Notes: generated from the letters alone by a model not told the origin. 64,000 nucleotides of DNA from Gemmatimonadetes bacterium 2013_60CM_65_52 (GCA_002215645.1 NGFI01000008.1:62001-126000); one strand, 5' to 3'; counted from the first letter of the stretch, positions 11,484-27,936 are shown. Numbers and translations are program-made.

Positions 11484-13910
11484 TTACCGGAGCCGTGACA
11501 ACGCGAACTGCACAGCGAGATCCGTCGTACTCCATAGTTGCACGTCCGAGCCCGTTCCGTATCGCAGCGGAACGATCCTGCCGTCTCGCAGTTCATAGCT
11601 CCACAGCTCGCTATGGAAACCTGACGCGTCCACCGCCGACCGAACGCGCGCCACCGCGCCCCGCAGCTCACCAGCATAGGCCGCGTCCCGCGTCGAGGAG
11701 AGCTGATTCATGACGCCGAGCAGAAACAGGTTCACCTCGCGTCCCCAGACCACCCGCGGACCGTGATACCGATCGCGCTCGAAGCGCGGCCACACCGCCG
11801 GCGGGGCATATGCATCGTTGGCCACGACTGGACCCACCCCTTCAATGAAGAGACCGACGGGGTAGGGACGCTCGAAGAGCTGCACATCCCGCAGGACCGC
11901 CGCGTGCGACGAGTCCGGCGCGCCGCGCAGCAGGAAAAGCCGGGTCGCCGGATCGGTGTTCGCGACGCCGAGGGGCGAGCCGCCGGCATCCAGCGAGATC
12001 GCCAGAAACGCCAGGGAGTCCCGATCCGCGTGCGTGGACGAAACGAGCGGCGTCCAATACTGGCGCTCGGCCGCTGGCAGCGCGGCGATGCGGGCATCCA
12101 CTCGCGCCCGGACCCCCGACGGATCGAGCCGAACGATGAAATGTTTTGCGACGCCGTTCCAGAGATCGATGGCATGGTGCAGCACGCCGGCGTCGCGCGC
12201 GAACCGGGAAAGTGGGCCGGTGGCCGCGTCATCGTGCATCGCGCGCAGGACTGAATCCGGCGCGAGACCCGCGTCTCTTAGCGCGTCGAGAATCACACGC
12301 GTGGCTTCCAATGCATGCGGGGCCCAGATGGCGTTCACGTCCATCGCGAACCGTCCGCCGGCGTATCCGTCCTCGCTGTCGCGCCAACTCGCGGACTGCC
12401 AGGTGCCGTCGTCACGCCGGGGAAATGAAACCAGATTCGTGGCGACCGGATCGGCGACGTACAGCGCAACGAGGCGCGCGACCAGTGCGAGCTCGCGCAG
12501 CATCCGGCGCACGCGAGCTTCACCGTCGGTTGCATCGAGGAGAAATGCTCGCTTCCGCTCGCGCGAGACGGTGGAATCGCCGAGCCACAGCGCCTCGAGG
12601 ACGGGAAGCTGGAACTCGTCGTCGATCATATGGTAGTTCTCCCGCACGCGGCGATGGTCGCGCAGCACGCTGGTGGCTCGCGCAAGCAACGAGTCGGCGG
12701 CACGACGATCACCGGCGCGCTCGGCGCGCCGATATGAATCCACCACGCCCGCGTACTCGGAGGCCGCTTCGCGGTCCGCCTGTCCGCCGAGTGCCTCCTC
12801 GTGGCTCACGTCCCCCGCGGGACCGAGCTTGCGCAGCACGCTCGCGATCACGAACGCGGACATGTCGGCGCGCCAGATCGGCCGCATCATCAGCGCCGAG
12901 ACGAGCATGTCGCGCCCGAAGTAGGTCGCGTAGGCGGGGAGGCCAGCCATCAACTTCTCTCGCGACGACAGCAGCTCCACGCCGCGCACCTCACGCTCGA
13001 GCCAGCGGCTGCGGAGCGACATGGAGTCCGTGCCGCGCACGGAGGCGAGAAAGCGGAGAAAGTCGGGAGTGAAGATCTCCTTGCGGCCGAGCGGCGACAG
13101 GGCCTTGCCGGTGGTGGTGATGCGAAGCGTGAACGGAGTCTCGTCGGAGGAGCTCGCGAGCGTCACGACGTCTCCGCTGGCGGTGGATCGCACGCGACCC
13201 GATGCCGCGCTGAGCTCGAGGGTGAGCGTGTCGCGAGCATCGAGCGACGGCTGGACGACGCGTGCGCGAAACGCCCCACCGTTCACTCGACTCGTGACGA
13301 CAGGCCGCAGCCGGGCGCGGAGTGCATCGATGCTCGCGGCGTTGAGGAGCGCGAGCTGCCGGCGGCGTTCCGCAGGAGGAAAAGTCTCGAGCGCGTCGAG
13401 CATGCCGCCGAGCTCCGCCACCTCGAACGCGCGCGTCGTGAATGGTCGCGTGTGGTGCTCGCCGTACTGAAAGTCGCGCTCGACGCGCATCGATCCCAGA
13501 AGAAAGAGTCCGGCGTCGATGCGCTTAGCGCCCGCGACGAGGCGATACTCGAAGGTTCGCGTGCGTCCGCTGACGGAGGCGCGGCCGTCGCCCGCGCCCC
13601 ACTGCACCGGGGCGGCTCGGCCACTCGAATCCCGAACGGTGAGGCCGAGGCTTTCGTCGTCGGCGTCGGCCCAAAGGTGGACGATGCGTCCACTTCGTTC
13701 GTCGAGATAGATCTGGATCGTGTTTCCGGCCGCGTCGCGATGGAAGCGCGTCTGATAGCCCTGGTAGGCGGCCGCGTCATCGAGGCCGCGCTCCGGAAAG
13801 GCGAAGAGGGGCGTGGACGGATGGACAGTGTTCCCCTGAGACCACGCCGCTGCGGGGGCCAAAGCGAGCGCCGAAATCAGCCCGAAAAAGAATATTGTGA
13901 TCTTTTGCAT
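11484..13910 (-). CDS. Secreted six-hairpin glycosidase-like protein
   Basis: 808 residues with an N-terminal signal peptide ('LISALALAPAAAWSQ'). Residues ~280-700 look like an (alpha/alpha)6 barrel. The segment 'YFGRDMLVSALMM' matches the region of bacterial glycogen-debranching and GH15/GH63-type enzymes around 'FGRDSLIS'. 'MDVNAIWAPHALEATRVIL' further on fits the same fold. The N-terminal ~270 residues are probably a beta-sandwich. I infer a periplasmic glycoside hydrolase acting on an alpha-glucoside, because it is divergent from susC and in the same region as a trehalase. No specific family was recognised with certainty, and catalytic residues cannot be named from sequence alone. Confidence 0.6.
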   Translation of the reverse strand: MQKITIFFFGLISALALAPAAAWSQGNTVHPSTPLFAFPERGLDDAAAYQGYQTRFHRDAAGNTIQIYLDERSGRIVHLWADADDESLGLTVRDSSGRAAPVQWGAGDGRASVSGRTRTFEYRLVAGAKRIDAGLFLLGSMRVERDFQYGEHHTRPFTTRAFEVAELGGMLDALETFPPAERRRQLALLNAASIDALRARLRPVVTSRVNGGAFRARVVQPSLDARDTLTLELSAASGRVRSTASGDVVTLASSSDETPFTLRITTTGKALSPLGRKEIFTPDFLRFLASVRGTDSMSLRSRWLEREVRGVELLSSREKLMAGLPAYATYFGRDMLVSALMMRPIWRADMSAFVIASVLRKLGPAGDVSHEEALGGQADREAASEYAGVVDSYRRAERAGDRRAADSLLARATSVLRDHRRVRENYHMIDDEFQLPVLEALWLGDSTVSRERKRAFLLDATDGEARVRRMLRELALVARLVALYVADPVATNLVSFPRRDDGTWQSASWRDSEDGYAGGRFAMDVNAIWAPHALEATRVILDALRDAGLAPDSVLRAMHDDAATGPLSRFARDAGVLHHAIDLWNGVAKHFIVRLDPSGVRARVDARIAALPAAERQYWTPLVSSTHADRDSLAFLAISLDAGGSPLGVANTDPATRLFLLRGAPDSSHAAVLRDVQLFERPYPVGLFIEGVGPVVANDAYAPPAVWPRFERDRYHGPRVVWGREVNLFLLGVMNQLSSTRDAAYAGELRGAVARVRSAVDASGFHSELWSYELRDGRIVPLRYGTGSDVQLWSTTDLAVQFALSRLR

Positions 13911-13940
13911 GGTCGGGGGGTCTCCCGTCTCGGTGATGAT

Positions 13941-13971
13941 TTTGTCACTATTTGTCTTGCGCTACGACAAA
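13941..13971. promoter_or_regulatory. TTTGTC direct/inverted repeats in the divergent susC promoter region
   Basis: TTTGTC occurs at 13941-13946 and again at 13951-13956, exactly one helical turn apart, and its complement GACAAA at 13966-13971. This lies in the 161 bases between the divergent glycosidase-like gene and susC, in a locally AT-richer stretch. It looks like a binding site for a transcription factor that could coordinate both directions. The factor is not identified. Confidence 0.5.
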
Positions 13972-14071
13972 CGCGGCGTTATGTCAGTTGCGCAACGTAT
14001 CAAAGAGCCGCATCCGCCGGGAAATCAGTTCGACGGATGACGTTCTCCACAATCGCCCGGAGGACTGACAA

Positions 14072-17000
14072 ATGGCGGAAGGTCGCTATCTTTTCGCAAA
14101 ATTTGCGGGAAGTATTGCGGGAGTGCTGCTGTGCTCCCTCAATCTGCACGCGCAGGCCGTTGGAACAGTGCGGGGTCGGGTCGCCGACACCGGAACCAAT
14201 CAACCGCTGGCGAACGTCAGCATCGTGGTCGAAGGCACGCGCTTCGGGACAACGACGCGTCTCGACGGCACGTTCGATCTCGGCGGCGTTCCGGCCGGCC
14301 GAGTTAGTCTCGGCGCGAGACGAATCGGGTATCACTCGACGTCCACGCTCGTCACCGTCGCGGCCGGAGCCGTGGCATCGGTCGACATCAAGCTCCTCCC
14401 GCAGGCCGCGGTGCTGACCGAAATGGTCGTCACCGGCTACGGCAGCCAACGGCGAGAGGCCGTCACCGGCGCCGTGAGCACGGTCGAGGCGAAGGACGCG
14501 AAGGTCGGCGTCGTCACGAACGCGACGCAGATGCTTCAGGGCCGCGCGCCCGGCGTGCAGATCGTGCAGAGCAACGGTGAACCGGGCGGCAACACGCAGA
14601 TCCGGATCCGCGGCGGCACGTCGATCAGCGCCGGCAACGAGCCGCTCTACGTCATCGACGGTGTGCCACTCCAGAACGACGGCACCTCGCCTGGCGCTGC
14701 CGGCGTCGCCTTCAACGCGGCGCTCTCGCGCAACCCGCTCAATTCCATCAGTCCCGATGACATCGAGTCGATGACGATCCTCAAGGACGCATCGGCCACG
14801 GCCATCTATGGAAGCCGCGCGGCGAACGGCGTCATTCTGATCACCACCAAGCGCGGTACTCGCGACTCGCAGTTGGAGTACGACGTGTACGCGGGCGCCG
14901 CCTCACCCACCAAGACGCTCGGCCTCGCAACGGCGGATCAGTACCGCACGTTCGTCACGCAGTTCAAGGACTCGCTGGGTGGCCAGGGTGCGGTCACGGC
15001 GCTCGGCAACGCGTCCACGGATTGGGAGAAGGCGCTGACGCGCACGAGTCTCGCGATGAATCACAACCTCGCCTTCAGCGGCGGGTCCGCGCAGACGAAG
15101 TATCGTGCGTCGATGAACTACTTCGACCAGGAAGGCATCATCAAGAACAGTGGGCTCAAGCGGTATCAGGGCCGACTGAACGCGACGCACGATGCCCTGG
15201 ACAGCCGGCTCCGCCTCGCCCTGAACCTGAGCGCGTCGCGCGTGAACAACACGTTCTCGCCGAATGAAAACGGCGGCGGCTTCACCGGCGGATTGTTCAC
15301 CAACATGGTGATCTTCGATCCCACGAAGCCGATTCAGAACGCCGACGGAACGTTCTTCGAGATCGGCACCGGCGCGCAGGACGTGCGCAACCCGGTCGCG
15401 ATGATCCAGCAGCTCTACGATTACGCGCCGGAAAATCGCCTGCTGGGGAATGTCACCGGCACGATCCAGCTCCATGACAACCTGACGGCGCAGACGCTCC
15501 TCGGTGCCGACAACAGCAACTCGACGCGGCAGTCCTATGCGCCGCGCGTGAGCCCGATCGGCGCTGCGTTCAGCGGGTACGCCCGTCAGGCCGAGCGCAG
15601 TCTGCAGAACCTGAATTTCCAGCAGCTCCTCACGTTCTCGAAGCACATGGGCGAGAACGAAGTCGAGCTCGTGGGCGGGTATGAGTACACGAAGAACAAC
15701 AACATGGAGTTCGCGTCCGCGGCGCAGGGGTTCATCACCGACGCATACGGCGTGGACAACCTGAACGCCGGCACGACGACGCCTGTGGGGTATCCGTACT
15801 CGTGGCACAGCGAGAGCGAGCTCTCGTCGTTCTTCTCCCGACTGAACATCGGCTTCGGCGGACGGTTCTTCGTGACGGGTGTGATGCGTCGGGACGGCTC
15901 CTCGCGTCTCGCGCCGGGACATCAGTGGGCCGTGTTCCCGGGGCTCTCCGCCTCGTGGCGCATGACCGACGAATCGTTCATGCGGAGCCATCCGCTCGGC
16001 CTCTCGGCACTCGCATTGCGCGTGGGCTGGGGCAAGCAGGGCAACCAGGCGGTGGCGCCGTATCAGACGCAGCTGCTGCTCAAGTCCGACAATGGGTCGC
16101 TGTATCCATTCGGCGGCGTCGTCACCAGCGGTTTGCGCGCGGTGCAGGTCGGCAATCCCGACCTGAAGTGGGAGACGGCCGAGCAAACGAATGTCGGCAT
16201 CGATTTCGGCCTGCTGCAGGATCGCGTCACCGGCACGATCGATATCTATCAGAAGAACACCAAGGATCTGCTGTTGAACCGCGCCGTACCGCAGCCAGCC
16301 GTCGTGAGCTCTCGGATCGAGAACATCGGAAGCCTACGCAACCGCGGTGTCGAAGGATCGTTGGACATGCAGTTGTGGAGCAGTGGCAAGAAGTCGCTCA
16401 CCGGCGGGCTCGTGCTCACGGTAGAGCGGAATCAGGTCACCAGTCTCGGTGACACCACGGCCGCCTGCGCCGCCGATTCGACGACGCAGAGCTTCCGCGC
16501 CGCCAGCAACGCGAAGTGCACGTTCATCCAGAGCGGCTTCGTGTTCGGGCAGGGACAGTCGAATCAGTACTCGCAGATCATCCTGCGTGGACAGCCGCTC
16601 GGATCCTTCCTCGCGCCGCGCTTCATCGGCGTGAAGAATGGACAGCAGTACTTCGCCTGCACCGTCGCCGGGCCGAGCTGTGCAAACGGTCAGACGACGG
16701 ATCCGACGGACGCCGATCGCGAGTTCATCGGCTCCGCAAATCCGAGCTTCACACTCGGCGTGCGCAACAACGCCGCGTGGGGCGCGCTGGATATGGCCTG
16801 GCTGTGGCGCGGTGAGTTCGGCGGCAACACGTTCAACAACACGGCGCTCGTGTATCAGACCAAGAGCGACGCGGCGCAGGGCCGCAACTTCATCGCGGCC
16901 GCGATTGGAATGCCGGACAACATTCACGAGCCCGCGAAATTCTCGTCGCGGTGGATCGAGAGCCGCACGTTCGTGCGGCTGCAGAACATGACCCTTGGGT

Positions 17001-17197
17001 ACACGCTGCCGCAGTCGCTCACGCGCGGCCGCACCACCCGCGCGTACGCCTCGGGCGACAACCTGCTGCTCTTCACTGGTTACTCGGGCTACGATCCGGA
17101 AGTGTTCGTTGCATCCGGACTCGCGTCCCGTGGCATCGACTATCTGACGTATCCGCCGACTCGCAGGTTCACCATTGGTGCTCGCACCCAATTCTGA
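14072..17197 (+). CDS. susC: SusC/RagA-type TonB-linked outer membrane transporter
   Basis: 1041 residues; GGAGG lies 9 bases before the ATG. Signal peptide to about residue 28, then a carboxypeptidase-regulatory-like domain (residues ~30-110, 'VRGRVADTGTNQPLANVSIVVEGT'), then the plug (~120-250) with the signatures 'RIRGGTSI', 'PLYVIDGVPL' and 'ILKDASATAIYGSRAANGVI', then a 22-strand-type barrel. SusC forms the outer-membrane pore for oligosaccharides, powered by TonB-ExbBD, with SusD as its lid. susD follows 29 bases later. Context (trehalase, glycosidase-like protein) suggests a glucose-containing substrate such as trehalose, but specificity cannot be read from the sequence. Confidence 0.95.
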   Translation: MAEGRYLFAKFAGSIAGVLLCSLNLHAQAVGTVRGRVADTGTNQPLANVSIVVEGTRFGTTTRLDGTFDLGGVPAGRVSLGARRIGYHSTSTLVTVAAGAVASVDIKLLPQAAVLTEMVVTGYGSQRREAVTGAVSTVEAKDAKVGVVTNATQMLQGRAPGVQIVQSNGEPGGNTQIRIRGGTSISAGNEPLYVIDGVPLQNDGTSPGAAGVAFNAALSRNPLNSISPDDIESMTILKDASATAIYGSRAANGVILITTKRGTRDSQLEYDVYAGAASPTKTLGLATADQYRTFVTQFKDSLGGQGAVTALGNASTDWEKALTRTSLAMNHNLAFSGGSAQTKYRASMNYFDQEGIIKNSGLKRYQGRLNATHDALDSRLRLALNLSASRVNNTFSPNENGGGFTGGLFTNMVIFDPTKPIQNADGTFFEIGTGAQDVRNPVAMIQQLYDYAPENRLLGNVTGTIQLHDNLTAQTLLGADNSNSTRQSYAPRVSPIGAAFSGYARQAERSLQNLNFQQLLTFSKHMGENEVELVGGYEYTKNNNMEFASAAQGFITDAYGVDNLNAGTTTPVGYPYSWHSESELSSFFSRLNIGFGGRFFVTGVMRRDGSSRLAPGHQWAVFPGLSASWRMTDESFMRSHPLGLSALALRVGWGKQGNQAVAPYQTQLLLKSDNGSLYPFGGVVTSGLRAVQVGNPDLKWETAEQTNVGIDFGLLQDRVTGTIDIYQKNTKDLLLNRAVPQPAVVSSRIENIGSLRNRGVEGSLDMQLWSSGKKSLTGGLVLTVERNQVTSLGDTTAACAADSTTQSFRAASNAKCTFIQSGFVFGQGQSNQYSQIILRGQPLGSFLAPRFIGVKNGQQYFACTVAGPSCANGQTTDPTDADREFIGSANPSFTLGVRNNAAWGALDMAWLWRGEFGGNTFNNTALVYQTKSDAAQGRNFIAAAIGMPDNIHEPAKFSSRWIESRTFVRLQNMTLGYTLPQSLTRGRTTRAYASGDNLLLFTGYSGYDPEVFVASGLASRGIDYLTYPPTRRFTIGARTQF

Positions 17198-17226
17198 TGC
17201 GACCAACCATTAGAGGGCCACAGGTG

Positions 17227-18843
17227 ATGAAGACATTTTCCGGAAGGACGGCACGCAAATACGCATGCCTGATGATTGCGCCGGTTCTCCTCGTCGGGGG
17301 CAGCAGTTGCACGAGCCTCACCGAGGTGCCGCACGACGCGCTCACGGCCGAGAACGCGTTCCACTCGGACGCCGAGATTACGGCTGGCGTCGCGGGCGTC
17401 TACTCGACGCTGCGCGCGGTGGAATGGGTCGGGTACGAGTCGCTGCAGGACCTCACGACCGACATGGCGATCGTCCCGACGCGCGGCAGCGACTGGTACG
17501 ACAACGGCCAGTGGCTGGACCTGCATCGGCAGACCTGGACGGCGAACAGCTCGGGCACGCTGGCTTTCCTCAACGGCGCATGGAACGACATGTTCGGCGC
17601 CGTCGCCAAGGCCAACCTGCTGATCGACGTCATTACGAAGGCGAACAGCGGGTCGAAGGGTGACTCGACGCTTGCGGAGCTCCGCACGTTCCGGGCATGG
17701 GATTACTACATGCTCTCGGACATGTTCGGCGGCACTCCGCTGGTGACGACGACCGAGCTGAAACAGTATCCGCGTGTTTCGCGGGACTCGGTCTTCCACT
17801 TCATCGAGACGGAAATACTCGCCTCGCGTGACAGGCTGCCGTCCAAGCGGGACGGGGGTGCGGCGGGCCGTCTGACCAAGGGCGCCGCGAACGCGATGCT
17901 GGCGAGCCTCTACATCAACGCTGGCGTGTTCGGCAAGGCCAGCGGTTGGAGCGGCACGAGCTACAATTCCTGCACGACGGTCAACGCGGCCGGCGGCAAG
18001 TCATCGTGCCAGGCGGCAATCGACGCCGCCAACGCGGTGATCAACTCCGGCGTGTACACGCTGAACAGCAAGTGGTCGGACAACTTCAGCCTGACCAACA
18101 AGGGATCGCCGGAGAACATCTTCGTGATCGTGCACGTGGCCGACCAGGGACTCGGCGGCACGTGGCCGATGCGCACGCTGCATTACAACCAGCTCTCGAC
18201 GGGCTGGGGTGGACCATGGAACGGCTGGGCAACGACCGCCGAGACGTTCGGCAAGTTCCAGACGACCGACGAGCGCCGTGGCATGTGGCTCTTCGGGCAG
18301 GGAACGAGCTTCCAGAACGGACAGCCCGTGAACGATCGCACCGGCAAGCCGCTCATCTTTACTGCGGCCATCGCCGACGCGAACTCGGCGAACGAAGCCG
18401 AGGGTGTTCGCTTCAACAAGTTCCCGCCGCTGGCCGATGCACCCACGGGCCAGTCGCACCCGAACGATTTCCCCTTCTTCCGCCTCGCCGAGATGTACCT
18501 GATCAGAGCAGAAGCGGAGAATGAGCTTGGACAGTCGGCAGCCGCCATTGCCGATCTGGCGATCATTCACGACCGTCATGATCAGACCAACACGGTCGGC
18601 AAGATGGATCTCTCGTCTGCACAGAAGATCCGCGATGCAATTCTCAACGAGCGGCTGCTGGAGTTTGCCGCCGAAGGGAAGCGCCGCTCGGACATGATCC
18701 GGATGGGCAAGTTCCTCTCGTGGACCGAGTCGTCGAAGAACGGTGTCTCGGCCTCGCCACGCGATGCGCACTTCATCGTGTTCCCGATTCCGGCACCGCA
18801 GCTCGCCTCCAACCCGCTGCTCACGCAGAACGCTGGCTACTGA
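17227..18843 (+). CDS. susD: SusD/RagB-family substrate-binding lipoprotein
   Basis: 538 residues from ATG 17227; the open frame extends upstream to 16951 but there it only shadows susC. The N-terminus is a lipoprotein signal with a cysteine in 'LVGGSSCTSL'. Typical SusD sequence features follow: 'EVPHDALTAENAFHSD', the TPR-like helices around 'ELRTFRAWDYYMLSDMFG', and C-terminal 'FFRLAEMYLIRAEAENELG' and 'ILNERLLEFAAEGKRRSDMIR'. It binds the glycan on the cell surface and caps SusC. It is downstream of susC by 29 bases, certainly the same operon. Confidence 0.95.
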   Translation: MKTFSGRTARKYACLMIAPVLLVGGSSCTSLTEVPHDALTAENAFHSDAEITAGVAGVYSTLRAVEWVGYESLQDLTTDMAIVPTRGSDWYDNGQWLDLHRQTWTANSSGTLAFLNGAWNDMFGAVAKANLLIDVITKANSGSKGDSTLAELRTFRAWDYYMLSDMFGGTPLVTTTELKQYPRVSRDSVFHFIETEILASRDRLPSKRDGGAAGRLTKGAANAMLASLYINAGVFGKASGWSGTSYNSCTTVNAAGGKSSCQAAIDAANAVINSGVYTLNSKWSDNFSLTNKGSPENIFVIVHVADQGLGGTWPMRTLHYNQLSTGWGGPWNGWATTAETFGKFQTTDERRGMWLFGQGTSFQNGQPVNDRTGKPLIFTAAIADANSANEAEGVRFNKFPPLADAPTGQSHPNDFPFFRLAEMYLIRAEAENELGQSAAAIADLAIIHDRHDQTNTVGKMDLSSAQKIRDAILNERLLEFAAEGKRRSDMIRMGKFLSWTESSKNGVSASPRDAHFIVFPIPAPQLASNPLLTQNAGY

Positions 18844-18871
18844 TTCGGGGCTGGAGACAAAATAGTTGTGG

Positions 18872-18908
18872 CGTTAGCGTGTTCATCGATGTGATGGGCA
18901 CGCTAACG
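18872..18908 (+). terminator. Stem-loop after susD
   Basis: CGTTAGCGTG (18872-18881) pairs perfectly with CACGCTAACG (18899-18908) around a 17-base loop, 28 bases after the susD stop. No T-run follows. It may attenuate transcription between susCD and the downstream FG-GAP gene, or protect the susCD mRNA 3' end, giving unequal expression within one operon. Confidence 0.55.
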
Positions 18909-18933
18909 TCGTTCTATTGACTACGTTGATCAG

Positions 18934-21900
18934 ATGATGCCGCCAGTGCCCCCTGGGAGACTTGCGCTCGCCCTGGGCGCGCTATGGGCCGCCGCGGCGT
19001 GCTCCGGCGTAGACGCGGCGGGTCGCGACCCATCGGCGAAGATTCCCGCCGCCGACGGACACCTCTTTACGAGGCTGCCCGCGGCGTACACGGGCGTGCG
19101 GTTCGAGAACCGGCTCACGGACACCCCGGACTTCAACGTCTTCACCTATCGCAACTTCTATAATGGAGGGGGCGTCGCGACGGCCGATCTCACGGGAGAC
19201 GGACTGCCGGAAGTGGTGCTCACGTCGAATCAGGGCGGGCCGCGTCTCTACCTGAATGAAGGCAAGTTCCACTTTCGCGACATCACGAAGGAAGCGGGTA
19301 TCAAGTTCAAGGGCCCAGGCTCCTGGGCCACCGGCGTCGCGATCGCCGATGTGAACGGAGACGGGCTGCTCGACATCTACATCTGCTACGCGGGCAATGG
19401 ACCGCCCGAGCAGCGCGCGAATGAGCTGTACATCAACGAGGGCGTTGGCACCGATGGTCTGCCTCGCTTCCGGGAGATGGCGGCGCAGTATGGCGTCGCC
19501 GATGAGGGTTACTCCACGCAGGCGGTCTTCTTCGACTACGACCACGACGGGAAGCTGGATCTGTTCGTCCTCAACAACTCACCGCGGCCGGTCAGCAGCT
19601 TCGGACCAGAGAACAACCGCGACGTTCCGAGCAAGTATGGCGGCCACAAGCTGTATCACAACGTGGGTGGCCGTTTCGTCGACGTCACGAAGCAGGCTGG
19701 CATTCACGAGGCCGAATTCGGCTTCGGGCTCGGTGTGGTCGCCAGCGATGTGAACGGTGACGGCTGGCCGGACCTGTACGTGTCGAACGACTTCTTCGAG
19801 AAGGACTACCTCTACATCAACAACCGCAATGGGACGTTCACCGAGTCGATCGATCGGGCGGCGCCGTCCATCAGCTATGCCTCGATGGGGCTCGACGTGG
19901 CGGACGTCGACAACGACGGGCGGCCCGACGTCTACACCACCGACATGCTGCCGGAGGATCAGGTTCGTCTTCAGACGACGACGACCTGGGATTCCTGGGC
20001 GCGGTACCTCACCAACGTGAAGAGCGGATATCACCACCAGTTCACGCGGAACATGCTCCAGGTGAACAATGGCGATGGAACGTTCAGCGACGTGGGGCAG
20101 ATGGCGGGTGTCGCGCGTACGGACTGGAGCTGGGGCGCGCTGATCGCCGACTTCGACATGGATGGCCAGAAGGACATCTTCGTGACGAATGGCATCGCGA
20201 AGGACCTGACGTCGCAGGACTACCTGGCCTGGCTGACGGAGCAGCGTTCGTCGCAGGGCGGCAGTGGGAAGCAGGCCGATTACCTGAAGCTGATCGCCGC
20301 CGCGAGCTCGACGAAGCTCCCGAACTATGCCTTCCACAACAACGGCAACCTTACGTTCACCAATCTGAGCGCGGCGTGGGGCCTCAGTACACCGAGCTTT
20401 TCGTCGGGTGCGGCGTACGCGGATCTGGACGGCGACGGCGCGCTCGACCTGATCGTGAACAACGTGAACGACACGGCGTTCGTGTATCGGAACAATGCGC
20501 GCACGCTCACGCCGAACCGGTACCTTCAGGTGAAGCTCGATGGTGATGCGCCGAACCGATTCGCCGTCGGCGCAAAGGTGACGTTGTTCACCGGCAGCAC
20601 GCTGCTTTTTCAGGAGCTCAGCCCGACGCGAGGGTTCCAGTCGAGCGTGGACTATGTGCTGACCTTCGGGCTGGGCGCGCGCGACACGGTGGACTCGATG
20701 ATCGTCGCGTGGCCGGGACGCGGGCCACGCGATGCGCGTGTCAGTGTGCTCAGGAGTGTTGCGGCGAACCACCGTATCACGGTGCGGGAAGCGGAGGCCG
20801 TCCCGGCGCCGGCGCCTGGGTTGACGCATCGGCTCGTGGCCGACGTTACACGCGACGTCGCCATTCCGTTCGTGCATCGCGAGAACGAGTTCAGCGACTT
20901 CGAGCGCGAGCCGCTGATGCCAAAGCTCGTGTCCACCGAAGGCCCTGCACTCGCGGTTGCCGACGTCAACGGTGACGGGCTCGATGACATGTTCTTCGGC
21001 GGCGCGAAGGGGCAGCCGGGAAAGCTGCTCATTCAGCAGCGCAACGGCAGCTTCACCAGCGTCAGCGAGAAGGAATTCGCGAAGGATTCACTCTCGGAGG
21101 ACGTCGGCGCGGTGTTCTTCGACGCAAACGGAGACGGCCATCCCGACCTCTATGTCGTCAGCGGTGGAAACGAATACAGCGAGGGCGCCACCGCGCTCCA
21201 GGATCGCCTCTATCTGAACGACGGCCACGGAAATTTCCGAAAGGCCGAAGGCTATCTGCCCGCTGAGCGGACCTCAGGGTCGCGCGTGGCCGCGGCCGAC
21301 TTCGATGGCGATGGGCATATCGATCTCTTCGTCGGCGGACGTGTGGTGCCGTGGCGCTATGGTGTGGATCCGCCCAGCATGCTGCTGCGCAACGACGGCA
21401 AGGGACATTTCACCGATGTCACCGACCAGGTCGCGCCCGGCCTTCGGAACGTTGGCATGGTCACCGATGCCGTGTGGCGTGACATCGACGGTGACGGCCG
21501 CCCCGATCTCATCCTCGTCGGCGAATGGATGCCGATCACGATCTTCCATAACACGGGCGGAAAGCTCGAGCGGATGAACGTGCCGGGGTTGGAGAAATCG
21601 GACGGTTGGTGGAACAGGATCATCGCTGGCGATTTCACGGGACACGGCCGAGTGGACTTCATCGTGGGCAACATGGGACTGAATGGCCGGCTGCACGCGA
21701 GCGCCACGGAGCCCACGACGATGTACGTGAATGATTTCGCACAGAGTGGCCTCGTGCAGCAGATCATCACGACGTCCAATGGCGGCGCGAGCTATCCGGT
21801 GCTCATGCGCGATGAGCTGCTCAACGTCATTCCGCGGCTGCGCGACCGTTTTCCGACCTATGCCTCGTACGCGCGCGCGCGCATCGAGGACATATTCTCT

Positions 21901-22371
21901 TCGCAGGAGCTGTCGGCTGGCGTCGTGAAGCACGCCTACACGTTCGCGACGTCGCTCGTGCGCAACAACGGCGACGGCTCGTTCACGGTCATTCCGCTGC
22001 CGGCTGAGGCGCAGCGGGCTCCGGTCTACGGCATCCTGGCGACGGACGTGGACGGAGATGGCCACGTGGACCTGCTGCTCGCCGGGAATTTCGACGGCAT
22101 TCCCCCTGAGCTTGGCGGACGCATGAGCGCCAGCGCCGGGCTGGTGCTCCGCGGAGACGGAAAGGGAAGCTTTACGCCACTCGAGGGGGGTCAGAGTGGT
22201 TTCGTCGTGCCGGGCCAGTCACGCGACATTCAACGTGTGCGGACTGGCGGCCGAGGCGATCTCTACGTGGTGGCGCGCAACAACGATCGCCCGTTGGCGT
22301 TCCGTGCGACGACGAGCGGCCAGACCAGCCGGCCGCTCGCCGCGCGGCGTGCTAGTGGTGCTTCGTTTTGA
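18934..22371 (+). CDS. CRTAC1-type FG-GAP/VCBS + ASPIC/UnbV surface lipoprotein (first copy)
   Basis: 1145 residues; lipoprotein signal with the cysteine after 'LWAAAA'. About a dozen Ca2+-binding loops of the form DxNxDGxxD are visible ('DVNGDGLLDIYI', 'DYDHDGKLDLFV', 'DVNGDGWPDLYV', 'DVDGDGHVDLLL'), building one or two beta-propellers. An ASPIC/UnbV segment lies in the middle (~residues 535-625, with 'GAKVTLFTGSTLLFQ' and 'GFQSSVDYVLTFGLG'), then a second propeller set. Such proteins are frequent partners of SusCD-like systems and are probably surface exposed. Their biochemical role is not established. A homologous copy lies 0.5 kb downstream. The 3' end overlaps the next, convergent gene by 20 bases. 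Confidence 0.88.
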   Translation: MMPPVPPGRLALALGALWAAAACSGVDAAGRDPSAKIPAADGHLFTRLPAAYTGVRFENRLTDTPDFNVFTYRNFYNGGGVATADLTGDGLPEVVLTSNQGGPRLYLNEGKFHFRDITKEAGIKFKGPGSWATGVAIADVNGDGLLDIYICYAGNGPPEQRANELYINEGVGTDGLPRFREMAAQYGVADEGYSTQAVFFDYDHDGKLDLFVLNNSPRPVSSFGPENNRDVPSKYGGHKLYHNVGGRFVDVTKQAGIHEAEFGFGLGVVASDVNGDGWPDLYVSNDFFEKDYLYINNRNGTFTESIDRAAPSISYASMGLDVADVDNDGRPDVYTTDMLPEDQVRLQTTTTWDSWARYLTNVKSGYHHQFTRNMLQVNNGDGTFSDVGQMAGVARTDWSWGALIADFDMDGQKDIFVTNGIAKDLTSQDYLAWLTEQRSSQGGSGKQADYLKLIAAASSTKLPNYAFHNNGNLTFTNLSAAWGLSTPSFSSGAAYADLDGDGALDLIVNNVNDTAFVYRNNARTLTPNRYLQVKLDGDAPNRFAVGAKVTLFTGSTLLFQELSPTRGFQSSVDYVLTFGLGARDTVDSMIVAWPGRGPRDARVSVLRSVAANHRITVREAEAVPAPAPGLTHRLVADVTRDVAIPFVHRENEFSDFEREPLMPKLVSTEGPALAVADVNGDGLDDMFFGGAKGQPGKLLIQQRNGSFTSVSEKEFAKDSLSEDVGAVFFDANGDGHPDLYVVSGGNEYSEGATALQDRLYLNDGHGNFRKAEGYLPAERTSGSRVAAADFDGDGHIDLFVGGRVVPWRYGVDPPSMLLRNDGKGHFTDVTDQVAPGLRNVGMVTDAVWRDIDGDGRPDLILVGEWMPITIFHNTGGKLERMNVPGLEKSDGWWNRIIAGDFTGHGRVDFIVGNMGLNGRLHASATEPTTMYVNDFAQSGLVQQIITTSNGGASYPVLMRDELLNVIPRLRDRFPTYASYARARIEDIFSSQELSAGVVKHAYTFATSLVRNNGDGSFTVIPLPAEAQRAPVYGILATDVDGDGHVDLLLAGNFDGIPPELGGRMSASAGLVLRGDGKGSFTPLEGGQSGFVVPGQSRDIQRVRTGGRGDLYVVARNNDRPLAFRATTSGQTSRPLAARRASGASF

Positions 22372-22786
22372 TGAGGATCACGCCGTTGGCGCCCCGGCTG
22401 CCGTACATCGACATGTTCGCGGCGTCTTTCAGCACTCTGATCTCCGCGATGTCGTACGGACTGATGCCGGCCAGTGCGCCGCCGGGGCCCGGCGTGATGG
22501 CCACGCCATCGATGATGTACAGCGGCTGGTTGTCGGGATTCCAGCTTGCCGAGCCGCGAATGCGCACCGTGAGACTGCCATCCGATGCGTGCCCGATCGT
22601 GACACCTGGGACGTTGTTGGCGAGGATCTTCTCGATGGGTATGTCGCCCGAGCTCGTAATGGCGGACGACGAGACCGTGTTATCGGCCGGCTGCGGAGCC
22701 GGCGCGGTCTCCGGAGGATTCCCGCCTCCACACGCGGAGATGAACGCGGCGCCAAGGATCAGAGACTTTGTACGCAGTGGGAACAT
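22352..22786 (-). CDS. Stand-alone TonB-receptor plug domain lipoprotein
   Basis: 144 residues. The N-terminus is a lipoprotein signal ('LILGAAFISACGGG'), then a Pro/Ala linker, then only a TonB-dependent-receptor plug domain: 'IEKILANNVPGVTI', 'VRIRGSASWNPDNQPLYIIDGVAI', 'AEIRVLKDAANMSMYGSRGANGVILI'. It has no barrel. The motifs are close to the plug of the nearby SusC, including the 'ILKDAS..YGSRAANGVI' block. It is encoded opposite to its neighbours and overlaps the end of the FG-GAP gene tail to tail. A free plug tethered to a membrane could bind TonB, block a barrel or compete with a receptor; none of this is demonstrated. Confidence 0.85.
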   Translation of the reverse strand: MFPLRTKSLILGAAFISACGGGNPPETAPAPQPADNTVSSSAITSSGDIPIEKILANNVPGVTIGHASDGSLTVRIRGSASWNPDNQPLYIIDGVAITPGPGGALAGISPYDIAEIRVLKDAANMSMYGSRGANGVILIKTKHH

Positions 22787-22879
22787 AAAAGCGAACTCCT
22801 CACGGCTCGAGGGCCGCAGCGGGATTATGTCGGACGGTGCAGCATAAAATGATCCTTATCACTTCGCGCGGCTAGTAGC

Positions 22880-25800
22880 GTGCACCGGATTTCAGCCTGG
22901 GCCGCGTTCGCGGCGGTGCTGCTCGCCGTCGCCTCGTGCCGGCAGACCGCGCCCCCCACGCTATTCGAACAGCTCCCGTCCTCATACACGGGTATTTCGT
23001 TTGCCAATCGGCTGCCCGAGGACACGAGTTTCAACATTCTCAACTACCTCTATTACTACAACGGCGGCGGCGTCGCGGTCGGCGACATCAACAACGACGG
23101 CTTGCCCGACCTCTACTTCACATCGAACCTCGGCGCCAATCATCTCTACCTGAACAAGGGGAACTATCAGTTCGAGGACATCACCGTGCGCGCGGGCGTC
23201 GCCGATTCGGTGGGCTGGAAGTCCGGCGTCACCATGGCCGACGTGAACGGCGACGGCTTCGTGGACATCTTCGTGTGCGGCGTGAGCTACCTGGGCGTTC
23301 ACGGCCGCAACGTGCTGTACATCAACAATGGTGACGGCACGTTCACTGATCGGACGAAGGAATACGGGCTGGAGTTCGAGGGCTACTCCACCCAGGCGCT
23401 GTTCTTCGACTATGACGGCGACGGCGCCCTCGACATGTACCTGCTGAACCACTCGGTGCACACCGAGCACGGTACGGGTTCACCGCTGTCGCGCACCGAG
23501 CGCAATCCGCGCGCGGGTGGACGGTTGTATCACAACGACCACGGCCACTTCGTGGATGTGAGTGCCCAAGCCGGCATCTACGGCGGCGCGTTCGGGTACG
23601 GGCTTGGCGTGGTGGCCAGCGATTTCGATGGCGACGGATGCCTCGACCTGTATGTCGCGAACGACTTTCAGGAAGACGATTTCCTTTACCACAACAATTG
23701 CAACGGCACGTTTACAGAAATCGGCGCGCGGGCGATGCGGCATACGAGCCGGGCGTCGATGGGTGTGGACGCGGCCGACTTCAACAACGACGGCCGTACC
23801 GACATCATCTCGGCAGACATGCTTCCCGAGCGCGAGGACGTGCTCAAGTCGTCGGCGTCGACCGAGAGCTTCGCCGTGTACGACCTCACGCGGCAGGCCG
23901 GGTATCATCCGCAATTCGGGCACAATGCGCTGCAGCTCAATCGAGGGTCCGATCCACACGGTCCGCCGGGGCTGACCTACTTCAGCGAGATCGGTTTCCT
24001 GGCTGGCGTTGCCGCGACTGACTGGAGTTGGGCGCCATTGTTCGCGGACCTCGACAACGACGGCCGGAAGGACCTGTTCATCACGAGCGGGATCTACCGC
24101 CGGCCGAACGATCTCGACTATCTCGCGTACGTCGCGAGCCCCGCGATTCAGGCGTCGCTCGGAAGGGCGATTACGCGTGAGAATCTCACGCTCGTCAAGC
24201 GCATGCCGCAGGTCGCCGTGCCGAATCATGCGTTCCGGAACAGCGGTGACCTCACATTTGCCAATGTGACGAACGCCTGGGGACTCGGACAGCCGGGATT
24301 CTCCAATGGAGCGGTGTACGCGGACCTCAACAACAGCGGTGCGCTCGATCTCGTGATCAATCGCATCAACGAGCCGGCGGCCATCTATCGCAATCACGCG
24401 CGAGAGCAGAATGGCGCGCATTATCTCCGCATCGCCCTCCAAGGGGAGGGAGGCAACACGCAGGGCATCGGCGCGAAGGTACTCGCCTGGCACGGCGCGA
24501 GTATGCAGTTGCTCGAGCAGATGCCGACACGGGGTTTCCAGTCATCGGTCGATCCGCGGCTCCATTTCGGACTCGGCGCCGCGTCGCGGGTGGACTCGCT
24601 GCTGGTCGTCTGGCCGGACCGGCGTTTTCAGATGTTGCGCGATGTCGCCGGCGACCGGATGCTCACGCTGTCGCAGCGACAGGCATCGGGGCGCTACGAC
24701 TTCAGGGACCGCGAGCGGAGTGCAGCTCCTCCGGTATTCGCCGACGTCACCGCCGTTGTCGGCATCGATTGGCGACATCACGAGAACCCGGCGGTCGACT
24801 TCGAGCGCGAGCCGCTGCTGCCGCACTTGCTGTCTACGCAAGGACCGGCAATCGCCGTCGGGGACGTGAACGGTGACGGGCTGGACGACATCTACGTCGG
24901 CGGCGCGAAGTGGCAGGCGGGCACATTGTTTCTTCAGCAGCGCGACGGAACGTTCCGCGAAAGTGCGCAGCCCGCATTTACGGCCGATAGTCTGTTCGAG
25001 AGCGTCGATGCCGCGTTCTTCGACGCGAATGGAGATGGCCATCCCGATCTCTACGTCGTGAGTGGCGGCGGGGAGTTCACCGGGTCAAACGACGCGCTTC
25101 AGGATCGACTGTACATCAACGACGGCCACGGGCACTTTCGTCGAGACGTGAGCGCTCTGCCGCGGATGACGGCAAGCGGCTCACGAGTCGCGGTGGGCGA
25201 CTTCAATGGCGATGGTCATCCCGATCTCTTCGTCGGACGGCGCGCCGTCACGGGCGCATACGGCGTGTCGCCGCGGAGCTATCTCCTCGAGAACGACGGA
25301 AAGGGCCACTTCCGTGACGTGACAAGGGAGCGAGCTCCGACAATGGCGGAGCCGGGGATGGTGACATCCGCCGCGTGGGTGGATTACGATCATGACGGGC
25401 ATCTGGACCTTGTCGTCGCCGGGGAGTGGATGCCCGTGCGCGTCTTTCATCAGGAGAACGGTCGCTTCGTTGAGCGCACGAGAGAGGCGGGTCTCGCGGA
25501 CACGAATGGGTGGTGGAACGACGTCACTGTTGCAGACCTCAACGGCGACGGCCGCCCCGATCTCGTGCTCGGCAATCTTGGGCTCAACTCCTACCTGTCG
25601 GCGTCAAAAAATGTTCCGGTGCGACTGTACGTCGGCGATTTTGCCCACGATCGCTCCCTTCAGCCGGTCATCACCGTGGAGCGCAACGGCACGAACTATC
25701 CCGTCGCCGGCGTCGATGAGCTTACGCGCGCGATTCCGGAGCTACGGAGTCGATTTCCCTCGTACACCGCGTTCGGCGGCAAGAGCGTCGAGGAACTGCT

Positions 25801-26248
25801 TTCGCGAGAAGCACTCAACAGCGCGCGACGTTTCGAGGCGGACGACTTTGCCACCTCCGTTGCGATCAACAACGGAAATGGCACCTTCACCCTGCACCGG
25901 CTCCCGATGCAGGCGCAGTTCGCGCCTGTCTCGGCGGCGATCGCCGAAGACTTCGATGGCGATGGGCGCGTCGATCTGCTCCTCGCGGGAAACGAGTTCG
26001 GTGTTCCCCCGTTATTCGGACGATATGACGCCGGTTACGGGCTGCTCTTGCGTGGCGACGGAGGCGGACGGTTCACTTCAGCCGAGTTGTCGCGGAGCGG
26101 TCTCGTTCTCGACGGCCAGGTCCGGCATATGAAAGTCGTCCGCCAAGCCGGCGGCGGGCGGCTGCTTCTCGTAGCGCGCAACGACGACAGGGTTCAGGTG
26201 CTCCGCGTGACACAGCCTAACGCTTCGCTTACCGCCAGGAAACCATGA
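22880..26248 (+). CDS. CRTAC1-type FG-GAP/VCBS + ASPIC/UnbV surface lipoprotein (second copy)
   Basis: 1122 residues from GTG 22880, which directly precedes a lipoprotein signal ('AAVLLAVASCRQT'); no good ribosome site is visible. The same architecture as the first copy is seen: propeller loops ('DINNDGLPDLYF', 'DYDGDGALDMYL', 'DFDGDGCLDLYV', 'DLDNDGRKDLFI'), a central ASPIC/UnbV part ('IGAKVLAWHGAS', 'GFQSSVDPRLHFGLG') and a second loop set ('DVNGDGLDDIYVGG', 'DANGDGHPDLYV', 'DFDGDGRVDLLL'). The two proteins align along their whole length, so they arose by duplication, but they are clearly diverged. The trehalase start lies inside the last codons, so expression is coupled. Confidence 0.88.
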   Translation: MHRISAWAAFAAVLLAVASCRQTAPPTLFEQLPSSYTGISFANRLPEDTSFNILNYLYYYNGGGVAVGDINNDGLPDLYFTSNLGANHLYLNKGNYQFEDITVRAGVADSVGWKSGVTMADVNGDGFVDIFVCGVSYLGVHGRNVLYINNGDGTFTDRTKEYGLEFEGYSTQALFFDYDGDGALDMYLLNHSVHTEHGTGSPLSRTERNPRAGGRLYHNDHGHFVDVSAQAGIYGGAFGYGLGVVASDFDGDGCLDLYVANDFQEDDFLYHNNCNGTFTEIGARAMRHTSRASMGVDAADFNNDGRTDIISADMLPEREDVLKSSASTESFAVYDLTRQAGYHPQFGHNALQLNRGSDPHGPPGLTYFSEIGFLAGVAATDWSWAPLFADLDNDGRKDLFITSGIYRRPNDLDYLAYVASPAIQASLGRAITRENLTLVKRMPQVAVPNHAFRNSGDLTFANVTNAWGLGQPGFSNGAVYADLNNSGALDLVINRINEPAAIYRNHAREQNGAHYLRIALQGEGGNTQGIGAKVLAWHGASMQLLEQMPTRGFQSSVDPRLHFGLGAASRVDSLLVVWPDRRFQMLRDVAGDRMLTLSQRQASGRYDFRDRERSAAPPVFADVTAVVGIDWRHHENPAVDFEREPLLPHLLSTQGPAIAVGDVNGDGLDDIYVGGAKWQAGTLFLQQRDGTFRESAQPAFTADSLFESVDAAFFDANGDGHPDLYVVSGGGEFTGSNDALQDRLYINDGHGHFRRDVSALPRMTASGSRVAVGDFNGDGHPDLFVGRRAVTGAYGVSPRSYLLENDGKGHFRDVTRERAPTMAEPGMVTSAAWVDYDHDGHLDLVVAGEWMPVRVFHQENGRFVERTREAGLADTNGWWNDVTVADLNGDGRPDLVLGNLGLNSYLSASKNVPVRLYVGDFAHDRSLQPVITVERNGTNYPVAGVDELTRAIPELRSRFPSYTAFGGKSVEELLSREALNSARRFEADDFATSVAINNGNGTFTLHRLPMQAQFAPVSAAIAEDFDGDGRVDLLLAGNEFGVPPLFGRYDAGYGLLLRGDGGGRFTSAELSRSGLVLDGQVRHMKVVRQAGGGRLLLVARNDDRVQVLRVTQPNASLTARKP

Positions 26249-27936
26249 CCACGCTTCAGATGAGATCAGCGATTGGTGTCGCGGCTCTGACTTTATTGGC
26301 GAGCTGTAAGGCGGCAGCGCCGAGTCGCTCGTCGAGCGCCGATCAGCCACGGGTGGTGGACGCGTACGACCCACCACACGACCTTGGTCCTCTGTTCGAG
26401 CGTGTGCAGCTCGGCGGACTCTTCGACGATTCGAAGACGTTTGTGGATGCGCGTCCGCGCTCTGATCCGTCGGCGATTGTTGCGCGGTACACCGACGCGA
26501 GCAGGGCAACGGGGTTCAATCTGCGTGCGTTCGTGGACTCCAACTTCGACATTCCGCGCCCCGTTGGCGGGGACTTCCGCACGGATACCACGCAGGCCAT
26601 GGAGGCGCACATTCGTGCGCTGTGGCCCGTGCTGACGCGTGCCGCCGACACGGCCGATGCGCGCTCGTCGCGAATCCCGTTGCCGAACGCCTATGTCGTT
26701 CCGGGCGGACGATTCCGCGAGGTGTACTACTGGGACTCCTATTTCACGATGCTCGGCCTGGTGGAGAGTGGCCGGACGGATCTCGTGAAGGACATGCTCG
26801 ACAACTTCGCGCACCTCGTGGCGACCATCGGCCACATCCCGAACGGCAATCGAACGTATTATCTGGGGCGCAGCCAGCCTCCCTTCTTCGCGGCGATGGT
26901 GGGACTCTATGCAAAGGCGACGGATACCACACAGGCGCTCCGGTATCTGGATGCACTCGAGAGAGAGCATGTATTCTGGATGGATGGGGCGGACCGGCTG
27001 AAGCCGGGGCAGGCGTATCGGCGCGTGGTCATGATGCCCGAGGGCGTCGCGCTCAATCGATATTGGGATGACTTGCCTGGGCCGCGGCCGGAATCGTTCA
27101 AGCCGGACCATGAGATCGGGCAAACGGTGCCTGATAGTCTGCGCGAGCGATTCTACCGCAATGCGCGCGCGGCCGCGGAGAGCGGTTGGGACTTCAGCAG
27201 CCGCTGGATGCGCGATCCATCCGACCTGAGGACGCTCGAGACGACGGCGCTCATTCCGGTCGATCTCAACAGCCTGATGTACAATGCCGAGCGGATGATT
27301 GCGGCGCTGCGTCGCTTCCGGAATGGGCAGGGTGATGCGGACGTCGCCGCGAAGTACGACCGGGACGCTGAACGCCGGCGGCAGTCCCTGCTCGCCGCGG
27401 CGTACGACCCCAATGACGGATACTTTTACGACGTGCGCTGGCGGACGTGGGAGCGAGTCACCGATCGTCCGTCGCTTGCGGCGGCGGCGGTGCTGTACTT
27501 CGGCCTCGCGGTGCCGTATCAGGCCGTCAGCGTGGCGGGACGGCTGGAGCGTGACTTCCTGAAGCCCGGCGGTTTCGTCACGACGAACATTCGCTCGGGG
27601 CAGCAGTGGGACGCACCGAATGGCTGGCCGCCGCTGGAGTGGATGGCGATGGAAGGGATTCGCCGATACGGCGGCACCGCCCTCGCGGATAGTGCGCGTA
27701 ACCGCTGGATGGCGCTCAATCGGAAGACCTACAAGGCAACGGGGCGGATGACGGAGAAGTACGACGTGGTGGATCTTACGCGGCCGGCGGGTGGGGGGGA
27801 GTACACGACGCAGGACGGTTTCGGATGGACGAATGGGGTGGCGCTGGCGTTGAGTGCTCAGGAACGTACCAGAGCCCGTCCGTCACGGGATGCGGTACGC
27901 CCGGGGCGGCCTGGCGAGCCAGCCAGAGTGCGATAG
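26245..27936 (+). CDS. treA: GH37 alpha,alpha-trehalase, lipoprotein
   Basis: 563 residues. Lipoprotein signal ('LTLLASCKAA'). Both GH37 signatures are present: PGGRFREVYYWDSY at residues 153-166 and QWDAPNGWPP further on. 'ESGWDFSSRW' carries the Asp that is the general acid in E. coli TreA, and 'TEKYDV' the Glu that is the base, followed by 'QDGFGWTNGV'. It hydrolyses trehalose to two glucose in the periplasm or at the outer membrane. The ATG overlaps the stop of the second FG-GAP gene (ATGA at 26245-26248), so the two are translationally coupled. The last ~30 residues are Arg/Pro-rich and unlike the family. Confidence 0.95.
   Translation: MTTLQMRSAIGVAALTLLASCKAAAPSRSSSADQPRVVDAYDPPHDLGPLFERVQLGGLFDDSKTFVDARPRSDPSAIVARYTDASRATGFNLRAFVDSNFDIPRPVGGDFRTDTTQAMEAHIRALWPVLTRAADTADARSSRIPLPNAYVVPGGRFREVYYWDSYFTMLGLVESGRTDLVKDMLDNFAHLVATIGHIPNGNRTYYLGRSQPPFFAAMVGLYAKATDTTQALRYLDALEREHVFWMDGADRLKPGQAYRRVVMMPEGVALNRYWDDLPGPRPESFKPDHEIGQTVPDSLRERFYRNARAAAESGWDFSSRWMRDPSDLRTLETTALIPVDLNSLMYNAERMIAALRRFRNGQGDADVAAKYDRDAERRRQSLLAAAYDPNDGYFYDVRWRTWERVTDRPSLAAAAVLYFGLAVPYQAVSVAGRLERDFLKPGGFVTTNIRSGQQWDAPNGWPPLEWMAMEGIRRYGGTALADSARNRWMALNRKTYKATGRMTEKYDVVDLTRPAGGGEYTTQDGFGWTNGVALALSAQERTRARPSRDAVRPGRPGEPARVR

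Follow-up and report, generated by a model that had tools for sequence, protein, structure and literature searches.

The locus described here, from Gemmatimonadetes bacterium 2013_60CM_65_52, is built on a core of four genes in the order SusC-SusD-FG1-FG2, in which FG1 and FG2 encode giant FG-GAP/ASPIC-UnbV lipoproteins, and the GH37 trehalase that follows them is a frequent accessory to this core. The same core recurs in Bacteroidota, and FG1 and FG2 are most likely surface partners of the SusCD transporter. On balance, I consider it somewhat probable that the locus is a SusCD-type uptake system for alpha-linked glucosides including trehalose, with FG1 and FG2 acting beside SusC-SusD. In what follows I infer surface exposure, formation of a complex with SusCD, the substrate and regulation.

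Organization of the locus

The features identified in the window (the whole stretch of DNA analyzed, 64,000 nucleotides) are as follows, with E-values from profile searches.

11484..13910, minus strand: P0007, secreted protein, possibly an (alpha/alpha)6 glycosidase; divergent; no Pfam family matched at E<=0.01
14072..17197, plus strand: susC, TonB-dependent outer-membrane transporter (PF00593 2e-20, PF07715 7.5e-20, PF13715 6e-16)
17194..18843, plus strand: susD, lid lipoprotein (PF07980 2.8e-31, PF14322 1.3e-15)
18869..18911, plus strand: terminator-like hairpin in the susD/FG1 gap, stem of ~20 pairs
18934..22371, plus strand: FG1, FG-GAP/ASPIC-UnbV lipoprotein of ~1,145 amino acids (PF13517 4.7e-91, PF07593 1.5e-16); FG1 clade
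22352..22786, minus strand: orphan plug, 144-amino-acid lipoprotein, SusC-type plug without barrel (PF07715 2.9e-15, TIGR04056 5.6e-29)
22880..26248, plus strand: FG2, FG-GAP/ASPIC-UnbV lipoprotein of ~1,122 amino acids, two propellers (PF13517 4.1e-90, PF07593 1.3e-20)
26245..27936, plus strand: GH37 trehalase, lipoprotein (PF01204 5.4e-133); ATGA overlap with FG2

An earlier note on this DNA had described a SusCD pair, two giant FG-GAP/ASPIC-UnbV lipoproteins and a GH37 trehalase, and the Pfam matches bear out each of these; the 4-base overlap that it saw between FG2 and the trehalase is exact, with FG2 ending at 26248 and the trehalase ATG at 26245. SusC possesses a TonB-dependent transporter barrel, a plug and a CarboxypepD domain, and the adjacency of susC and susD, with a carbohydrate-active enzyme (GH37) co-located, is that of a SusCD-type polysaccharide utilization locus (PUL). 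The real start of susD probably lies a little 3' of 17194, and the gene is one of seven SusD genes in the 4.2-Mb genome. FG1 and FG2 each show 11 FG-GAP_3 stretches and a UnbV_ASPIC domain in the profile search, which is the CRTAC1/ASPIC-UnbV family pattern of an FG-GAP propeller followed by an ASPIC/UnbV domain. Lipoboxes were recognized by eye in FG1 (AAAC), FG2 (VASC), the trehalase (LASC), SusD (SSC) and the plug (SAC), and a surface location would be expected for all five. No regulator adjoining susC was recognized within the window; in other loci (L180, L186, L188 and L197; L numbers designate the loci compared), LacI-type N-termini seen by eye adjoin susC or a symporter.

The trehalase is a full-length GH37 protein (PF01204, 445 bits against a cut-off of 21), scoring 550 against 512 for the TreF subfamily of NCBIfam without reaching the TreA equivalog threshold. 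Its best solved relatives are the periplasmic trehalases 5z66 (E 2e-146) and, from E. coli, 2jf4 (1.7e-144). The signature motifs PGGRFREVYYWDSY, SGWDFSSRW, QWDAPNGW, EKYDV and GGGEYTTQDGFGW align with 5z66, and the putative catalytic motifs, whose residues I take to be catalytic, are kept. Judged by its sequence, the enzyme is a TreA-like GH37 and a putative trehalose hydrolase. It is the only GH37 of the genome, and its closest relatives, at 62–68% identity, are found in metagenome-assembled Gemmatimonadota genomes.

The divergent gene P0007 had been called six-hairpin glycosidase-like. The divergent position stands, and the fold is at most hinted at: the predicted model, with a low pLDDT of 68, combines a beta domain with an alpha toroid, and matches (alpha/alpha)6 enzymes with Z of 13.1, 12.7 and 12.6 at 8–12% identity, the best being dextran dextrinase (13.1), followed by GH100 invertases (12–13). 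Homologues of P0007 are found in the cluster at eleven loci (L133, L134, L135, L137, L138, L142, L146, L156, L160, L161 and L168). Comparison with an 881-amino-acid GH116/MGH1-like protein (L195:13758-16400) gave no convincing similarity (E 0.09).

Conservation in Gemmatimonadota

In a sample of 200 Gemmatimonadota genomes, close trehalase homologues (E<=1e-100) are present in 24 and FG2 homologues (E<=1e-120) in 38; the latter occur in 20 of the 24 trehalase genomes, against 4.6 expected (Fisher p 1.5e-13, uncorrected for relatedness). Neighborhoods were fetched for 23 trehalase loci, leaving out that of the window itself, and since four lie on short contigs showing no cluster gene, 19 are informative. 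SusCD and/or FG genes lie within ~15 kb of the trehalase in 16 of these 19, so that the synteny of SusCD, FG and GH37 genes proposed as a check is indeed found in related genomes. The complete order SusC-SusD-FG1-plug (antisense)-FG2-trehalase is identical in L146, from the same genus, and in L026. Such conservation implies that the gene order is not coincidental, and chance neighborhood is ruled out by it, the conserved order being far beyond what chance would give.

The trehalase is not always part of the arrangement. At least seven well-sampled orthologous cores (L150-L155 and L168) have no close GH37, and some of these have as neighbors SSF and MFS transporters, a GH100-like gene, GH97 or a PAP2/haloperoxidase-like lipoprotein. 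At L160 and L161 a divergent GH37 stands in place of the close one.

Two further genes recur, the second of them in Bacteroidota loci as well. One encodes a GH15 protein with a trehalase-like N-terminal domain (TREH_N), and is convergent with GH37 in seven loci (L027, L131, L135, L136, L137, L138 and L142). The other encodes a PAP2/vanadium-haloperoxidase-like lipoprotein of ~450 amino acids, located between or 3' of the FG genes (L046, L051, L066, L073, L079, L140, L143, L147, L149, L154, L155, L157, L168, L169, L194, L195, L203, L204 and L206).

The core in Bacteroidota

FG giants are encoded in 21 of 99 genomes of Bacteroidota, the phylum of Fulvivirga. I examined 20 FG loci from this phylum, picked without regard to trehalase. 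SusC is close by in 18 of them, for the most part with SusC-SusD-FG1-FG2 following one another on a single strand; no SusCD was detected at L198 and L199. Each of the seven FG loci in the Fulvivirga genome has SusC next to it, and five of these loci come straight after a SusD, although the 8.1 Mb of this genome hold just 55 PF07980 SusD genes. The adjacency of SusCD and FG genes in both phyla supports the suggestion, made in the earlier note, that the FG-GAP proteins are SusCD partners.

The enzymes at the Bacteroidota loci are GH65 (L196, L204), GH13 (L193, L197, L207), GH3 (L205), and GH77 together with a GH116/MGH1-like protein (L194, L195), while L200 and L202 have lipoproteins among their other genes; GH37 is present at one of the 20 (L203). 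Conversely, among 49 full-context trehalase loci outside Gemmatimonadota, an FG gene lies within 10 kb in seven, and none is nearby in 42. On both counts, the trehalase link, strong in Gemmatimonadota, is occasional in Bacteroidota. The true core is therefore SusC-SusD-FG1-FG2, with the trehalase as a frequent accessory; a universal core that includes the trehalase is ruled out by the cores without GH37 and by these 42 trehalase loci.

The likely substrate

Alpha-glucoside enzymes recur at the core loci, instead of or beside the trehalase: GH65, GH97, GH13, GH15 with TREH_N, GH77 and GH100-like. Because these recur, and because the trehalase is missing from at least seven cores, it is best to define the substrates broadly, as alpha-glucosides, with trehalose as one of them. 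The earlier proposal of a conserved glycan-uptake locus with a trehalase thus holds, whereas trehalose as its defining substrate is not supported, also in view of the 42 trehalase loci outside Gemmatimonadota with no FG gene nearby. Homologous loci without the trehalase, or with enzymes for unrelated substrates in its place, had been named as evidence against that proposal; loci of the first kind exist, but what stands there in its place is mostly an alpha-glucosidase, hence not an unrelated enzyme. The cores without GH37 show that trehalose is not the substrate in every case. Some Bacteroidota FG loci also count against the alpha-glucoside reading, namely those with GH3 (L205), with other lipoproteins (L200, L202) or with no SusCD detected (L198, L199). 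Free trehalose, moreover, is small enough for porins, so the need for SusCD is not obvious, which counts against the reading preferred here.

A system specific for trehalose, with free trehalose or a trehalose glycolipid as its single substrate, would account for the presence of the core in 16 of the 19 informative Gemmatimonadota trehalase contexts, for the seven loci where GH15 with TREH_N adjoins GH37, and for the placement of the sole GH37 of the genome in this locus. PULs for trehalose-like substrates have also been proposed in North Sea Flavobacteriia, with related SusC/D proteins seen in situ (PMC6298971). However, the cores without a close GH37 are hard to fit to a single substrate, as are the recurrent GH65, GH97, GH13, GH32 and GH100-like enzymes and the one GH37 among 20 Bacteroidota FG loci; for a glycolipid, no lipid-cleaving gene was recognized. 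I therefore regard strict trehalose specificity as unlikely, and retain the wider class of alpha-glucosides.

At three Flammeovirgaceae/Fulvivirga loci (L046, L051, L066), the SusCD-FG-trehalase cluster has beside it a gene for glycerol kinase, one for glycerol-3-phosphate dehydrogenase, or both, and an aquaporin-like gene recognized by eye. These hint at a substrate containing both glucose and glycerol, such as glucosylglycerol, which is an idea only, since the glycerol genes are confined to a few loci.

History and predicted fold of FG1 and FG2

A tree of 69 FG proteins, built with a quick method and containing some long branches, separates an FG1-type clade (27 sequences, SH-aLRT 99), an FG2-type clade (29 sequences, 99) and a third group of other paralogues. 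Both the FG1-type and the FG2-type clades hold Gemmatimonadota and Bacteroidota sequences, which places the FG1/FG2 duplication before the module came to be spread over both phyla; on this tree, FG1 and FG2 are an ancient pair. Both are retained, in fixed order, in most loci, which favors distinct tasks for the two proteins, or a single assembly in which each is a subunit.

The third group takes in a second SusCD-FG locus of the same genome (C10:432-440 kb). This locus (L018, G000:C10:427000-446000) has a SusC, a SusD-like protein ('CKDFL...QGTLN') and an FG-GAP gene of a different clade, convergent with SusCD, and has no trehalase; the arrangement is repeated in three other Gemmatimonadota loci (L182, L183, L185).

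The predicted model of FG2 (pLDDT 89.7, pTM 0.90) has an N-terminal half that resembles CRTAC1 (9etn; 463 residues aligned with Z 38.3 and rmsd 2.4), ASPIC/UnbV domain included, and a second propeller at residues 616–1117. Compared to CRTAC1, with which they share the FG-GAP propeller followed by ASPIC/UnbV, the FG proteins have roughly double the length and a further propeller at the C terminus, and are bacterial lipoproteins tied to SusCD. The nearest solved structures are all adhesion or matrix proteins, with the matrix protein CRTAC1 first and weaker matches to integrin alpha and Bap1, so that FG1 and FG2 could be such proteins merely sharing an operon, with no part in uptake. I consider this quite improbable: the FG genes tightly adjoin SusC-SusD in both phyla, and two separate paralogues are maintained in fixed order, both of which point to a function shared with the transporter.

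Over 353 residues, the second propeller of FG2 matches aldos-2-ulose dehydratase (4a7k) with Z 29.2. As the locus shows no dedicated endo-acting surface enzyme either, one or both FG propellers might be lyase- or dehydratase-like sugar-acting enzymes instead of binding proteins; this is very improbable, as the identity is only 12% and non-enzyme propellers (LGI1, KICSTOR, WD40 proteins) likewise score Z 25–32, and the match to the predicted model serves as a lead only.

Transcription and the orphan plug

In 32 of 38 susD-FG junctions across both phyla, the stem reaches 11 pairs or more (mean 15.4, against 9.0 in dinucleotide shuffles), compared to one of 33 susC-susD junctions and two of 19 FG-FG junctions. 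The position of the hairpin is kept in the two phyla while its sequence differs, and many of the Bacteroidota hairpins resemble intrinsic terminators in having a run of T after them. That the hairpin is unique to FG loci was not upheld, as 9 of 20 other SusD genes reach the same threshold, some with stems inside coding sequence; because of these it is read as a putative SusCD-operon attenuator, enriched at FG loci and not exclusive to them. Searching the window against Rfam, with gathering thresholds, gave no match, and a scan for sigma-70-type promoters gave no more matches than chance.

The plug gene had been listed in the earlier note as an orphan plug, and its domain is genuine: its closest family is SusC/RagA itself. 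What the note did not state is that the gene is read from the minus strand: it is convergent with FG1, whose 3' end it shares over 20 nucleotides, and divergent from FG2. A TonB-dependent receptor consists of a plug and a 22-strand barrel, and this protein stops where the barrel would start. The antisense plug is found beside FG1 or FG2, or between both, in 15 Gemmatimonadota loci (L024, L026, L027, L131, L133, L134, L136, L146, L150, L151, L152, L153, L159, L169 and L186), and its lipobox is conserved. Plug-like lipoprotein genes were also seen in Bacteroidota (L188, L095, L073), those of L188 and L095 sharing the strand of the SusCD-FG or trehalase gene.

A conserved gene on the opposite strand separates FG1 from FG2, and susD is followed by a terminator-like hairpin, so the single transcript from susC to the trehalase that the earlier note envisaged is unlikely, although readthrough is possible. 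The layout points instead to two probable plus-strand units, one running from susC through susD and an attenuating hairpin to FG1, the other comprising FG2 and the trehalase; the plug gene lies antisense between them.

A working model and known systems

In the model that I favor, FG1 and FG2, a lipid-anchored double-propeller pair, would lie at the cell surface, next to SusC-SusD or above it, where they would capture the sugar or hold it in position; the SusD lid would close on SusC, which would import the sugar using TonB energy. The lipoprotein trehalase (together with, where present, P0007, GH97, GH65, GH15 or GH13) would release glucose, the SSF/MFS symporters of related loci may carry glucose or disaccharide onward, and the antisense plug lipoprotein perhaps modulates SusC/TonB or competes for it. 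A bolder form is a tentative suggestion, which I hold possible rather than probable: FG1 and FG2 may be obligatory subunits of an undescribed, ancient SusC-SusD-FG1-FG2 transporter class of Gemmatimonadota and Bacteroidota, with double propellers replacing SusE-type binding proteins, and with a lipid-anchored free plug modulating the transporter in Gemmatimonadota.

There are precedents for parts of this arrangement. BtuG, a propeller lipoprotein, caps the TonB-dependent transporter BtuB (PMC10404256), and in levan and dextran utilisomes SusCD carries extra surface lipoproteins (PMC7618045); however, BtuG is a single seven-bladed propeller acting as a lid, whereas here SusD is encoded along with two predicted double-propeller proteins. 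The starch/glycogen (SusCDE) and branched-dextran (FjDexUL, PMC10316084) PULs likewise combine SusC, SusD, accessory surface lipoproteins and GH13/GH65/GH97 alpha-glucosidases, but their surface binder is SusE/F or SGBP in place of the tandem FG-GAP pair, and FjDexUL has GH66 and GH31, with GH37 not listed. Comparable in substrate are PUL103 and PUL116 of North Sea Flavobacteriaceae, for trehalose or alpha-1,1-glucan, where a SusC/SusD pair is assigned a trehalose-like substrate; these belong to another phylum, and the main text of that report mentions neither FG-GAP, VCBS nor GH37 (PMC6298971). The earlier view that no PUL of this composition had been described thus needs narrowing, in that trehalose PULs are already named there, while its main text has no FG-GAP or GH37. 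Literature searches, with most subscription journals outside their coverage, found no paper linking FG-GAP/VCBS/UnbV proteins with SusC/SusD. What may be new here is the FG1/FG2 pairing with SusCD across two phyla, of which these searches gave no description; trehalose PULs as such are already reported (PMC6298971).

Among the Gemmatimonadota and Bacteroidota genomes sampled, about one in five encodes FG-GAP/VCBS giants, and a pair that travels with SusCD gives this large uncharacterized family a concrete, testable role, and extends the utilisome idea beyond gut Bacteroides. The most interesting part is the SusC-SusD-FG1-FG2 module, rather than the trehalase, together with the conserved, lipid-anchored antisense plug between FG1 and FG2. 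For the organism, the locus provides a lead on how soil Gemmatimonadota may use trehalose and other alpha-glucosides from fungi, algae and dead cells.
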